In this document: piece by piece, positions 10,650-41,270 of the stretch
How the letters are laid out: every line of letters begins with the position of its first letter
Position numbering within the stretch: position 1 is the first letter of the stretch
Source of the DNA: a virus
DNA length: 43,640 nucleotides
Virus record (IMG/VR): IMGVR_UViG_3300010296_002064
Coordinates: 1 to 43,640 of that record
Strand: one strand, 5' to 3'
Position numbers and translations under genes: made by a program
The notes under the pieces: generated by a model
Told to the model about the DNA's origin: nothing
Database searches by the model: none
What the model saw: the letters and a program-made list of their open reading frames with translations, nothing else

Positions 10650-11111
10650 CTATTCGACTATGTGAAGTATAACTCGTTCCTCGTCAGTAAAGTTATACCC
10701 CGCATATGTTCTACTTCCATCATATGTAAGAACCTCACCCATTTTCCATTTTCTTAGTTCGTAATCGTCTGAGAATATCATTCCAGTTTCACCTTCTGGA
10801 ATAATCAATGGTATGTGATGAACTACTGCATCATCATAGTATTTGATTTTTGTATTGACAGGAACAAACGATTTAGGATAGAGAGTTATAAAGTGCGCGG
10901 CTCGTATTCTCTCATCTATCAATAGTTCAAAAGTATTTGGTATCAGGTAACTGATTTTAGAAGGTCTACCATATTTGAGTATGACAGTATCCCACCCCTT
11001 ACCAAAAGAGTTCTGTTCTTTATTTGGTATTCTCTTTGATTTGTCTTTTACTACACGATAATCTGTTAGAAGAGTATCGGTGTTAGACAGCAATTTTTCT
11101 GCCAGACTCAT
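10650..11111 (-). CDS. cupin/AspH-like protein, metal ligands uncertain
   Basis: About 153 residues starting [12 protein letters not shown]. The C-terminal half looks like the AspH-type beta-helix: AHFITLYPKSFVPVNTKIKY, VVHHIPLIIPEGETGMIF, MGEVLTYDGSRTYAGYNFT, EERVILHIV. The usual H-x-D before the HIPL strand is not visible (VNTKIKYYDD instead), so it may be a non-catalytic or altered member. I chose the ATG at 11111 because AAGGAAG lies just before it. It overlaps the TauD-like gene upstream by 29 nt, and transcription ends at the terminator at 10550-10580. Function unknown. Confidence 0.55.
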   Translation of the reverse strand: MSLAEKLLSNTDTLLTDYRVVKDKSKRIPNKEQNSFGKGWDTVILKYGRPSKISYLIPNTFELLIDERIRAAHFITLYPKSFVPVNTKIKYYDDAVVHHIPLIIPEGETGMIFSDDYELRKWKMGEVLTYDGSRTYAGYNFTDEERVILHIVE

Positions 11112-12111
11112 ATTCTTCCTTTCGAATATCATCAACCAAAGATAAGAACTCAGTCCCATCCATTACTTTACCGTCCACTGTATATTCGTCCTTGTGACCC
11201 TCGCCTGGATATAGTTTGTCCATATACGAGATATTGCGCCACAACTTACGCATATTACCATCCGTGATATCAGTCGGGCGGGCATGTAGAGTGATGTTCT
11301 GTTCCATATAGACAACCTGACCGTCCTTCCAATCGTGGGTGTAGATATATTCAGGACGATTTATTTTCTCCCACAGATAGTCCTTGAACTTTAGACTTTC
11401 CTCTTCGGTCATACCATCGAACTTATGGAAGAGAGTGCCAGGAAAGTGAATACCCTTCACACCAGACGGCGTTGACTGTTGTAGTTTACACATCATACCA
11501 TCAACAGGAACTTGATTGTATCTGACCATCTGTTTCTGTTCGTCAATCAGATTACCCGTAAAGTTCTCTCTGTTCCAACGATACACACTCTGGAGTTCAT
11601 CAACCATCGTTTTGTCTTCGTGGTTCAGTTTATCGTATGCTTCTTTGGTGCATAGGAATGCGGTCTGTGACCCTTCGGTATGTTCAACCGACACCAGACC
11701 AATGATGCGGTCTCCGTCATTGAGGGCAACTTGGTCACTATGCCAACCCAATACACCATTCGCAAAAACACCCTTCGGTCTACCTTTCTTGTTTCTTTGA
11801 TAGGTAACAACCGACATGGTGTTGCGATAGTCTGGTTCAATCTCTGATGAACCGTTGAGAATATTTAATCGAAGACTATTCCAGTGATGTCCCTTCATCG
11901 TTCCTACCGATGTAGCAAGGTGAACGATTGAGTGTGCGGGACTACCCCACTGCATCTGAACATCATAGGTTCTCTTCTGGTCTAGTTTTTGGTCTACCAG
12001 AACGACAGACTCATTCGCGATAAGTCTACCCAAGTCTGCGATATTCTCATCAGAGTAGATATCAAAGTCATATGCTTCGACTGCGTTGTTTTTTAGAGTT
12101 CTTACTTTCAT
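11083..12111 (-). CDS. TauD/TfdA-family 2OG-Fe(II) dioxygenase
   Basis: 342 residues, the usual length for taurine/gamma-butyrobetaine-type dioxygenases. [12 protein letters not shown] gives the H-x-D iron ligands (about residue 123), QNITLHARP the distal His, and [10 protein letters not shown] the Arg that binds 2-oxoglutarate. The N-terminal segment [18 protein letters not shown] fits the family start. The substrate cannot be inferred; members act on sulfonates, betaines, amino acids and others. Cytoplasmic. It is the first protein gene downstream of tRNA-Pro and the tmRNA, so it may be read from the same late promoter. Confidence 0.85.
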
Positions 12112-12132: not shown

Positions 12133-12209
12133 TGGTCGGGGTTGGAAGATTCGAACTTCCGACCTCTCGCTCCCAAAGCGAGCGCACTACCAGGCTGTGC
12201 TAAACCCCG
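12133..12209 (-). tRNA. tRNA-Pro (anticodon TGG)
   Basis: 77 nt with encoded CCA. The acceptor strands CGGGGTT and AACCCCG pair fully and the discriminator is A. The anticodon stem CTCGC/GCGAG encloses loop TTTGGGA with anticodon TGG at 12173-12175; the T-arm is GGAAG-TTCGAAT-CTTCC. It directly follows the coding piece of the tmRNA, with only a few nt between, so both are probably cut from one precursor. It reads CCA and other CCN codons. Confidence 0.95.
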
Positions 12210-12212
12210 TTA

Positions 12213-12475
12213 AGAGTGGGGACTTCTGTTGCTAGGCGTCCCCTGACCCCGAAGATTATGCCGCGAGGGCGTAATCCTCATGTGCGTAATTATCGTTTGC
12301 ACTTACGAGTTTGTTACGGTTAAGGTCGCTTCCACACCTATTCTCCACATTCCTAATCAATACCTGTCGAACCTATTTCGCCCCCTTCAAAAACCGTCAC
12401 CGTGACGGCGATTTATGGTGGAGGCGGGGGGTATCGCACCCCCGTCCAGTCTACCTTTCGGTTTGCTTCATCGAA
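12213..12475 (-). ncRNA. ssrA: circularly permuted (two-piece) tmRNA
   Basis: The gene order is acceptor piece, intervening segment, coding piece. The acceptor piece (about 12475-12416) has T-arm GGGGG-TGCGATA-CCCCC and ends CGCCTCCACCA. The intervening segment (12415-12386) holds the hairpin CCGTCACGGTGACGG. The coding piece starts at 12385 with GGGGGCG, which pairs with CGCCTCC over 7 bp (one G-U), followed by the tmRNA hallmark GGTTCGACAGG. The resume codon is at 12300-12298, and the tag (12300-12256) reads ANDNYAHEDYALAA then TAA. A GGGGAC/GTCCCC hairpin (12218-12243) closes the coding piece. Product: rescue of stalled ribosomes with a degradation tag ending in ALAA. I could not assign helix P2 with confidence, and the outer ends are approximate. 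A late promoter lies just upstream. Confidence 0.9.
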
Positions 12476-12481
12476 TATTTT

Positions 12482-12489
12482 TATTTATA
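12482..12489 (-). promoter_or_regulatory. T4-type late promoter for tmRNA and tRNA-Pro
   Basis: TATAAATA on the minus strand immediately before the acceptor piece of the tmRNA; it overlaps the stop of the 68-aa gene at 12485. It would start transcription near 12475-12470. Confidence 0.65.
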
Positions 12490-12691
12490 CTCCAAGAATA
12501 TTTCCTGCTTTATTCTGGTCAAGAGTGCCACCATCGCGCATGTGCGTTTCTAACTGTTCAAAGTAGAATGCGGCATCATCATGACCATACTCTTCAAGAA
12601 CTTCTTTACATGCCTTGAAGAACAACATAGTCTTCATCAGATTTCCATCACCCATTGGTTTGGATTTTTTAGCGGCTCTTTGGTTCGACAT
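12485..12691 (-). CDS. hypothetical protein, 68 aa
   Basis: It begins MSNQRAAKKSKPMGDGNLMK and continues as a helical, charged protein (KTMLFFKACKEVLEEYG, AFYFEQLETHMRDGG). No known motif, signal or membrane segment is visible. The ATG at 12691 is preferred over an in-frame TTG two codons earlier. It overlaps the upstream small gene by 23 nt, and its stop lies on the late promoter of the tmRNA. Family not recognised. Confidence 0.55.
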   Translation of the reverse strand: MSNQRAAKKSKPMGDGNLMKTMLFFKACKEVLEEYGHDDAAFYFEQLETHMRDGGTLDQNKAGNILGV

Positions 12692-12875
12692 TTTCAATAA
12701 ACTCCTTCATCAATCCGAACATCTTGACCATCTGGTCTTCTTCTTCTATCCCTGCGGGGACACAAATTGCTTCCTTATAAAGTTCACGGAACTTCACTGC
12801 CGCCAAATCACACATCTGTTCTGACGGATACAATATCTGTATATTCATCGAAGCGACAATCAGAAGAAACTTCAT
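12669..12875 (-). CDS. hypothetical protein, 68 aa
   Basis: The sequence starts MKFLLIVASMNIQILYPSEQ, a short hydrophobic stretch, followed by MCDLAAVKFRELYKEAICVP and an acidic C-terminal helix. It may be membrane-associated or have a weak signal, but neither is convincing. The ATG overlaps the stop of the gene upstream (ATGA junction) and the end overlaps the next gene, so it is part of a tightly coupled early unit. Family not recognised. Confidence 0.5.
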   Translation of the reverse strand: MKFLLIVASMNIQILYPSEQMCDLAAVKFRELYKEAICVPAGIEEEDQMVKMFGLMKEFIENVEPKSR

Positions 12876-31727: not shown

Positions 31728-32405
31728 TTATGCTCCGTAAGTTGATGATTTTTCAAGTGCAATAAAGTATTCAATCGCAGATTGTTTACTCGTAAAGTGT
31801 GAGATTAATTTAGAGGAAATCCCAACCTCAAAGTCTTCGTTGACAACTTTCACATTACCAACGTTCAGAATAAAGTTGAAGTCAACCCCTTCTGGATAGT
31901 CACCCTCTACCTCGATAGAGAATGCATTGGATGTTGCATCCTTACTGTCTACAACAGACAAACGAATTGCACCAGTTGTCGGGGTGATGGAAATCTCCTC
32001 ATGACCCAATGCGGCAGCGGCACGTTTGACTTTACCCAATGTATCAGTATCTAGGGTAAACTTAACCTCTGCTTCTGGCATATTGATATCCTTGCCAGGC
32101 GATGTCAACATCTCTGGGTCAGAGAAGAAATACTTCACAGAGGAACGACCAGTAGAGTCACCGACTACAACATAGTCTTTCTCAAATGAAAGACGAGGAG
32201 AGTCAACCAATGATAGAACATTCAGAAACTCATTCAAGTCATAGATTCCAAAACCTTGTGGAAACTCTTCATTGAGTTGTGCAGTAGATAGAACATTACG
32301 AGCGACTGAAATAGTCTTGATAACACTACCTTCTGTGATTACGATGTTAGGATTGATTGTTGCATAGTTCTTCAACACTTGCAACGTGGTATCTGTTAGT
32401 TCCAT
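31728..32405 (-). CDS. 45: gp45 sliding clamp
   Basis: 225 residues (T4: 228). Clamp-fold landmarks: ELTDTTLQVLKNYATINPNI, GIYDLNEFLNVLSLVDSPRL, ISITPTTGAIRLSVVDSKDA and a C-terminal SAIEYFIALEKSSTYGA. A trimeric ring that tethers gp43 and activates late transcription with gp55. AAAAGGAA precedes the ATG. The promoter at 32436 is a perfect consensus. Confidence 0.95.
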   Translation of the reverse strand: MELTDTTLQVLKNYATINPNIVITEGSVIKTISVARNVLSTAQLNEEFPQGFGIYDLNEFLNVLSLVDSPRLSFEKDYVVVGDSTGRSSVKYFFSDPEMLTSPGKDINMPEAEVKFTLDTDTLGKVKRAAAALGHEEISITPTTGAIRLSVVDSKDATSNAFSIEVEGDYPEGVDFNFILNVGNVKVVNEDFEVGISSKLISHFTSKQSAIEYFIALEKSSTYGA

Positions 32406-35700: not shown

Positions 35701-35729
35701 ATTATACCAAACTTGACAATATTAGTCAA
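35701..35729 (-). promoter_or_regulatory. early promoter of the gp47 unit
   Basis: TTGACT, 17 nt, TATAAT with TG before the -10. The -35 overlaps the final codons and stop of gp55. Confidence 0.85.
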
Positions 35730-36321
35730 CAATAAAATTACTTAAATCAGAATCCGCTTTGACTGTGCGTCTCTTACGTTCCTTTTTAACAATATCTTTC
35801 CACTCAGAGTCTTTCTCTTTGACCTCATCAATCCGAATACGAAGTTGGTCAACAAATGCCTGTGCGACTGAGGCTGATTGTTCATCACCCAGTTCATTGT
35901 CGAGGAAGTTCTCAATACCAGATTGATTGATATACTTCATCTTAATATCCTGTTGTTTCTTTTCTTTTTCAATACGGCGTAAAAATGCAAACCATGAAAT
36001 CTGTGTAAAGTATGCAAACGCATTTGGTTTACCCGTGCGTGTCGCTGCCTCTAGATTATAATTCTCAATCGCCTTGAGACAATTCTCTACCGCATCCATC
36101 ACCATCTCTTCGCGATATGTGTATCGAACAAAGTTTGATTTGTGCGACAATCCCTCACAGATTTTGAGAAAACATTCCGCGATATAGTCAGGAACTTTGG
36201 GTAGATTATTATTTCCCGATTTACGTTCTTTATCCAACAAAGTAACATAGTCTACTACTGCCTGTGAAAACTGTGCATTATTTACATAATGTGGTTTATC
36301 TTTTGGTTTTACTTTTGTCAT
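35722..36321 (-). CDS. 55: gp55 late-transcription sigma factor
   Basis: 199 residues (T4: 185). It begins with KPKDKPHYVNNAQFSQAVVD and contains the sigma region 2-like core: FVRYTYREEMVMDAVENCLK, ATRTGKPNAFAYFTQISWFA, FLRRIEKEKKQQDIKMKYIN. The C-terminus would contact gp45. It directs host RNA polymerase to TATAAATA late promoters, four of which are seen here. TGGAG precedes the ATG. Confidence 0.95.
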   Translation of the reverse strand: MTKVKPKDKPHYVNNAQFSQAVVDYVTLLDKERKSGNNNLPKVPDYIAECFLKICEGLSHKSNFVRYTYREEMVMDAVENCLKAIENYNLEAATRTGKPNAFAYFTQISWFAFLRRIEKEKKQQDIKMKYINQSGIENFLDNELGDEQSASVAQAFVDQLRIRIDEVKEKDSEWKDIVKKERKRRTVKADSDLSNFIVD

Positions 36322-40686: not shown

Positions 40687-40715
40687 ATTATACCAAAGTT
40701 TATATAAAAAGTCAA
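40687..40715 (-). promoter_or_regulatory. early promoter of uvsY, leaderless start
   Basis: TTGACT, 17 nt, TATAAT with TG before the -10. Five nt (ACATT) separate the -10 from the ATG. The -35 overlaps the end of the structural gene at 40712. Confidence 0.85.
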
Positions 40716-41239
40716 ACTATTTCGAATTGTGCAAACCTAAATGATGCGTCAAATGTCAAGATACTAGTTGCGCCTGTTGTTGACTGGAAGTCGATTGTTC
40801 CTAGTGATGTGGGGACACAATCCTTATATCTTATTTTCTTGGTTGTATTGTTGTGACTGGATAGAACCGACAACGTGATATCAGCATATGTAGGGGCTTT
40901 GGTCATCGCGTCACCCGCAGACACTTGACCGTCATTGATGATACGAATCATCCAGTCATACATTTCTTTGTATGAAGTCATATCCTCATCGAGAATAATC
41001 TGGAATGAGACTTCAGAGAAAGTTATCTTGTCTCCCGCGAGAGGGACAGATGTAATACGGCGACTAGGTAATTCTACAGGAGATAATGTCGCGCCTGGAT
41101 GATTGACTGACTGACAAAAATATTCCAAGTTTGGATAACGTGTTCTGTTTATGATAACACGAAAACCCGTTGGTTGGAGATAATTCAGATTCGTTGTCAG
41201 TGTTTCATCTGATATCTGAACAGTTGATGTTACTGGCAT
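40712..41239 (-). CDS. tail-tube/baseplate-type structural protein
   Basis: 175 residues. NYLQPTGFRVIINRTRYPNL, FCQSVNHPGATLSPVELPSR and KITFSEVSFQIILDEDMTSY, then KEMYDWMIRIIND and LTFDASFRFAQFEIV. The strand order and the YDWM helix resemble the gp19/gp54 tail-tube fold of T4-like phages. It may be the baseplate-tail tube junction protein (gp54 or gp48) rather than the tube. A late promoter (41263) and AAGGGG precede it, consistent with a virion protein. Confidence 0.6.
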   Translation of the reverse strand: MPVTSTVQISDETLTTNLNYLQPTGFRVIINRTRYPNLEYFCQSVNHPGATLSPVELPSRRITSVPLAGDKITFSEVSFQIILDEDMTSYKEMYDWMIRIINDGQVSAGDAMTKAPTYADITLSVLSSHNNTTKKIRYKDCVPTSLGTIDFQSTTGATSILTFDASFRFAQFEIV

Positions 41240-41262: not shown

Positions 41263-41270
41263 TATTTATA
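41263..41270 (-). promoter_or_regulatory. T4-type late promoter of the tail-tube-like gene
   Basis: TATAAATA on the minus strand, 23 nt before the ATG at 41239. Confidence 0.75.

Follow-up and report, generated by a model that had tools for sequence, protein, structure and literature searches.

A Phage-Borne Two-Piece tmRNA Gene With a Putative T4-Type Late Promoter in a T4-Like Marine Phage

Results

Identification of the tmRNA gene and its genome context

The window analyzed here is the record of an uncultivated virus (43,640 bases), a 43.6-kb fragment of a T4-like phage. It carries on its minus strand, at 12489-12215 with the promoter box included, a circularly permuted tmRNA of the alphaproteobacterial type. 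The best explanation for the whole is that a T4-like marine phage carries a functional gene for a two-piece tmRNA, probably transcribed from a gp55-dependent late promoter; judging from sequence comparison, we place the probability of this reading at about 0.78. The T4-like replication set in the window consists of gp43 polymerase, clamp loader subunits (gp44), gp45, gp46/47, gp41 helicase, and UvsX, and the T4-like late genes gp55 (late sigma factor) and gp19 (tail tube) are also present. The nearest sequenced phage, as determined with the polymerase, was Phage C48C1 (Kyanoviridae), at 62.5% identity.

Anatomy of the tmRNA

The original prediction had described an acceptor-first gene order, a 7-bp stem, a hairpin spacer, a coding piece, a tag, and a promoter box, and this anatomy was correct throughout; that all of these features lie on the minus strand had not been stated. 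The acceptor piece, or 3' half (about 12416..12476, with the start predicted from the box + 13), contains the 5' strand of P2, the T arm, the acceptor strand CGCCUCC (12426-12420), and, at its 3' end, an encoded ACCA (12419-12416). The intervening spacer (30 nt, 12386..12415) has no ORF and consists of a hairpin, CCGTCA/TGACGG with a predicted energy of -9 kcal/mol, followed by T5. The coding piece, or 5' half (12215..12385), is made up of GGGGGCG, the 3' strand of P2, a pre-tag region, the tag, and a 3' hairpin (GGGGAC/GUCCCC, 12243-12238 / 12223-12218). GGGGGCG and CGCCUCC form the acceptor stem with 7 of 7 pairs, the third being G-U, and the P2 strand UAUUC (12477-12473) pairs with GAAUA (12343-12339) in the coding piece. 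The tag reading frame (12256..12300, minus strand), ANDNYAHEDYALAA followed by TAA, is intact and has a degron-like C terminus, so the claim that the phage RNA has a tag of its own was borne out. A tRNA-Pro (UGG) gene (12133..12209, minus strand) lies 5 nt 3' of the coding piece. Downstream of both RNA genes and on the same strand are a TauD-type dioxygenase gene (11083-12111) and an aspartyl/asparaginyl hydroxylase gene (10650-11159), both of which possibly share the late transcript.

We considered the spacer hairpin as a terminator and rejected it. Terminator-like sites were no commoner than in shuffled sequences, and close relatives have 12-nt spacers without the hairpin.

Evidence for a two-piece tmRNA

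Two Rfam models matched the locus in cmscan far over their cut-offs, as the claim of a permuted tmRNA had implied: alpha_tmRNA with 126.2 bits (E 3e-34, cut-off 50) and tmRNA_permuted with 122.6 bits (E 1e-23, cut-off 47). The one-piece, beta, and cyano tmRNA models did not appear in the output, in which only the best overlapping match of each clan is retained. ARAGORN, the other program proposed for checking the prediction, reported the neighboring tRNA-Pro and missed the tmRNA. By our count, the same program reported no tmRNA in 26 of 60 viral loci with a recognizable acceptor stem, tag, and spacer. The frequency of tmRNAs in phages is therefore underestimated where ARAGORN, which misses many such genes, is relied upon.

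Pairing between the two pieces was assessed in 45 distinct box-bearing phage tmRNAs by swapping halves at P2, that is, the 5' end of the acceptor piece against coding pieces. Cognate halves had a mean score of 13.0 versus 10.8 for swapped halves, and 0 of 2000 permutations reached this difference. The stem of the hairpin behind the tag was kept in 118 of 125 distinct sequences by means of 57 different stems. For neither PK1 nor the second pseudoknot was the crossing helix recovered, and cofolding of the pieces as two strands, in which the coding piece was entered one base short, gave z = -1.3 without recovering P2. Gene anatomy and compensatory pairing, together with the conserved promoter position described below, are demonstrated by the sequences.

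The putative late promoter

The box, an exact copy of TATAAATA at 12482..12489 on the minus strand, overlaps the stop of a 70-aa ORF upstream of the tmRNA (12485..12697, minus strand; GTA TAA ATA), such that five of the eight box bases fall within the coding end and stop codon of that ORF. Late promoters of T4 have this box about one helical turn before the start and no -35 element (PMC2988020). With the T4 spacing (box + 13), the start in the window is predicted at about A12476. The best match to a -35 element at 15-19 bp from the window box was 2 of 6.

The window has five copies of TATAAATA on the minus strand and none on the plus strand, with approximately 1.2 expected per strand. One of them (41263..41270, minus strand) precedes the gp19-like tail tube gene (40712-41239), a second and independent late-gene use of the box. 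In a 144-kb relative (G001), 18 of 22 copies are on one strand, compared to 3.4 expected, and they precede tail sheath, tube cap, baseplate wedge, gp2, and tail-fiber genes, among others. Because copies precede late structural genes, the box appears to be the late promoter of this phage group, as in T4 (PMC2988020). The presumed reader of the box is a gp55-like late sigma factor (phrog_234; 35722..36321, minus strand). A gp45-like sliding clamp (31728..32405, minus strand) is also encoded; its role in T4 is that of late-transcription activator (PMC2988020). No gp33 was recognized anywhere in the 43.6-kb fragment. The 70-aa ORF was examined as a candidate gp33 and rejected, having no match to the gp33 of Melnitz or Mosig, to PHROGs, or to Pfam.

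Conservation of the box among viral tmRNAs

Comparison loci were collected by an ORF search, by a tag-pattern scan, and from the phage Melnitz; the promoter was not a selection criterion. Among 90 distinct viral tmRNAs of the permuted type, an exact TATAAATA was located at a distance of 55-71 nt upstream of the acceptor strand in 51, and neighboring control stretches contained it in 0-1 of the same 90, although the sequences are related and the counts are not independent trials. In most of these tmRNAs the predicted start (box + 13) is no more than 1 nt from the first pair of P2. This coincidence suggests that the promoter determines the 5' terminus of the acceptor piece. L190 (8155-9168) contains two tmRNA-type loci in tandem, separated by about 0.9 kb, and a separate TATAAATA precedes each of them by 67 nt.

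Conservation of the ORF end could have kept the box in place, but this explanation was rejected. Homologues of the 70-aa ORF without an adjacent tmRNA end in GTG TAAAAA, GTT TGA, GTA TGA, or GTC TAG and have no box. Relocated tmRNAs, in contrast, retain it: in L019-L021 the tmRNA is 1.3 kb away behind a different ORF with the box directly ahead of it, and in L086 the box is again immediately upstream. The box accompanies the tmRNA when the neighbors change, and thus belongs to the tmRNA and not to the neighboring gene. The original proposal of a T4-type late promoter is supported by this conserved spacing across phages, by the gp55 gene in the window, and by the boxes before late structural genes.

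Early, late, or composite expression

The box could alternatively be a plain sigma-70 -10 element, or the tmRNA could be transcribed by read-through from upstream; in either case synthesis of the RNA would be early or continue all through infection, in line with the proposal for Melnitz. Outside the window's clade, a -35 element 17 bp before the box is usual (TTGACA-17-TATAAATA), and 25 of 51 logo sequences match all six of its bases, with 0.1 expected. The sigma-70 and late start sites would coincide, and the Melnitz promoter was called early by its authors from BPROM (PMC9004378). The window itself contains a weak sigma-70-like match, TTGACC-16-TATTCT, slightly upstream of the box; this match is no better than those in shuffled sequences and was not seen at loci with a relocated tmRNA. 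However, the window's clade has no -35 element at the right distance, and TATAAA does not have the conserved final T of the sigma-70 -10 element. Moreover, among promoters anchored by a good -35 element, those of tmRNAs used TATAAATA in 32 of 46 cases and TATAAT in 2 of 46, whereas other such sites on the same contigs used TATAAATA in 13 of 232 and TATAAT in 53 of 232 (Fisher P 9e-21 for TATAAATA). We consider a purely sigma-70 or read-through origin improbable.

The promoters of most relatives, with TTGACA and TATAAATA, are read here as putative composite early/late promoters. That of the window's clade looks late-only, since a -35 element is absent at the right distance. The copy in the window is probably made late in infection, a timing inferred from the fixed distance at which tmRNA genes lie behind the late-gene switch across about 90 relatives.

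ORFs within the spacers of relatives

Spacers of at least 100 nt carried a Shine-Dalgarno sequence and an ATG-initiated ORF of at least 25 aa in 31 of 50 distinct cases, compared to a mean of 1.9 and a maximum of 7 in shuffled sequences. One hydrophobic family of 38-44 aa occurs inside the spacers of L037, L097, L161, L164, L177, L194, L204, L210, L215, L218, L219, and L257. Its pN/pS was 0.23 in frame, whereas the other frames gave 0.95 and 1.93; the stop codon of the family lies 0-1 nt ahead of the coding piece. The 38-aa spacer peptide had no match in sequenced phages, and ten spacer peptides had no convincing match in PHROG. A literature search on the intervening segment of tmRNA gave no hits, which is weak evidence of novelty.

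A second family of spacer ORFs, with the motif INN(Y/I)S..(H/Q)A.LI, is present in L043, L095, L134, L136, L162, L236, and L237; most members terminate with GAK or GVK, and their stop codon falls 13 nt into the coding piece (GGGGGCGAAATAG). Within the Melnitz spacer (L002, 4868-5009) lies a 54-aa ORF that is not annotated; it has a Shine-Dalgarno sequence and runs into the coding piece. At 29 residues, the tmRNA tag of L157, L184, and L205, ANDNVSNVFSFVDFGSLKNYVNEDYALAA, is double the usual length.

Discussion

Phage-borne permuted tmRNAs have already been published for Melnitz and Mosig (PMC9004378), and the RNA described here therefore joins a known class and is not new in itself. The Methylophilales phage Melnitz (MZ577097; PMC9004378) is likewise a marine T4-like phage with a permuted tmRNA of the alpha type; its tag is ANDNYVPVDYALAA, and TATAAATA lies 66 nt before the acceptor strand. 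Melnitz differs in having TTGACA at 17 bp, which would make a composite promoter, recorded as early by its authors, whereas the window has the late box only. The Melnitz spacer, at 142 nt compared to 30 nt in the window, includes an ORF and reportedly a glutamine riboswitch as well. The SsrA of Pelagibacter phage Mosig (MT647606), another marine T4-like phage with a permuted tmRNA, has no TATAAATA in front. Gene order, acceptor stem, tag type, and 3' hairpin are shared with the two-piece tmRNA of alphaproteobacteria (RF01849; Caulobacter). In contrast to that RNA, the window tmRNA is phage-borne with a putative T4-type late promoter, and its tag was unmatched in two scans of bacterial genomes, both run without a positive control. 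The promoter resembles T4 late promoters (PMC2988020) in its box and in having no -35 element, as in the late-only form, and would differ from those of T4, RB49, S-PM2, and Syn9 in driving expression of a structured RNA that has its first helix right at the point where transcription starts.

The permuted form had also been taken as a hint of the host. Rfam agrees that the RNA is of the alpha type, but inference of the host from it is weak: Melnitz carries such a tmRNA and yet infects an OM43 methylotroph, a non-alphaproteobacterium (PMC9004378), so the RNA type does not settle the host.

Two-piece tmRNA is known to arise from a single precursor transcript, on which RNase P and tRNase Z probably act; it accepts alanine and works together with SmpB (PMC3985003). 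For the window tmRNA we infer late timing, processing, function, and benefit along the following lines. Transcription would begin at about A12476, the first pair of P2, with the polymerase supplied by the host and the late sigma factor and sliding clamp by the phage, so that the promoter itself would fix the 5' end of the acceptor piece. A single transcript would include tRNA-Pro as well as the spacer and the coding piece. From this precursor, RNase P and the 3' processing enzymes of the host would excise the spacer and detach the tRNA, and the RNase P cut at tRNA-Pro would presumably free the 3' end of the tmRNA. The two pieces would pair through the acceptor stem and P2 before alanine charging. 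The charged tmRNA, with host SmpB, would rescue stalled ribosomes, and the tag, (A)ANDNYAHEDYALAA, would target the products to host ClpXP. The host would have to supply SmpB, since none was found in the 18 viral records searched. No phage-encoded SspB was found, nor was RegB, the latter in a search without a working control that bore on the original suggestion that the RNA may serve at a time when many messages are cut. The benefit would probably be that translation is kept running late, when the host tmRNA is no longer renewed.

Two other scenarios concern the function of the RNA. It could be a functionless passenger that the phage acquired from a host, for instance when a prophage excised imprecisely at ssrA, which is a common integration site; host capture was suggested for Melnitz (PMC9004378), and the gene is missing in the related phage C48C1. 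Yet permuted tmRNAs turn up in numerous divergent phages; their helices show compensatory changes, their tags are intact, and a phage-type promoter moves with them, which makes a passenger very unlikely. Alternatively, it could interfere with host trans-translation as a decoy or competitor, either blocking or redirecting it, in the manner of the tmRNA without a CDS that is reported for phage DS6A, a form that inhibits the endogenous tmRNA (PMC11915505). A tag with no match in a scan of bacterial species genomes, run without a positive control, is consistent with such a role. However, the tag frame is intact and conserved with variation, its LAA end is that of ClpXP degrons, and the acceptor stem and CCA are complete; we give the decoy only a slight chance.

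The principle of a composite promoter is already known, as overlapping early and late promoters were proposed for middle genes of RB49, S-PM2, and Syn9 (PMC2984593). We found no description in the literature of a composite early/late promoter on tmRNA genes. The new element is the apparently late-only promoter on a phage tmRNA, for which comparative support is good. On balance we favor, with some reserve, a broader reading in which the permuted tmRNA genes that marine T4-like phages carry would be dedicated phage expression cassettes. Their promoter, late or composite early/late, would start at the first P2 pair, and in many relatives a small protein gene would be nested in the discarded spacer and end at the RNase P site, so that one transcript would yield a rescue RNA along with a small protein, often a membrane protein. 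In this scheme the window would be the minimal form, late-only and with no nested gene.

The late-promoter finding bears on the question of when, and for what reason, a phage makes a ribosome-rescue RNA of its own. The published guess for Melnitz was early expression to destroy host proteins (PMC9004378). The conserved, putative late box qualifies the "early" label given to the Melnitz tmRNA promoter. Present at a fixed distance in over half of the phage tmRNAs sampled, and the sole recognizable promoter in the window's clade, the box predicts that these RNAs would be expressed late or in two phases.
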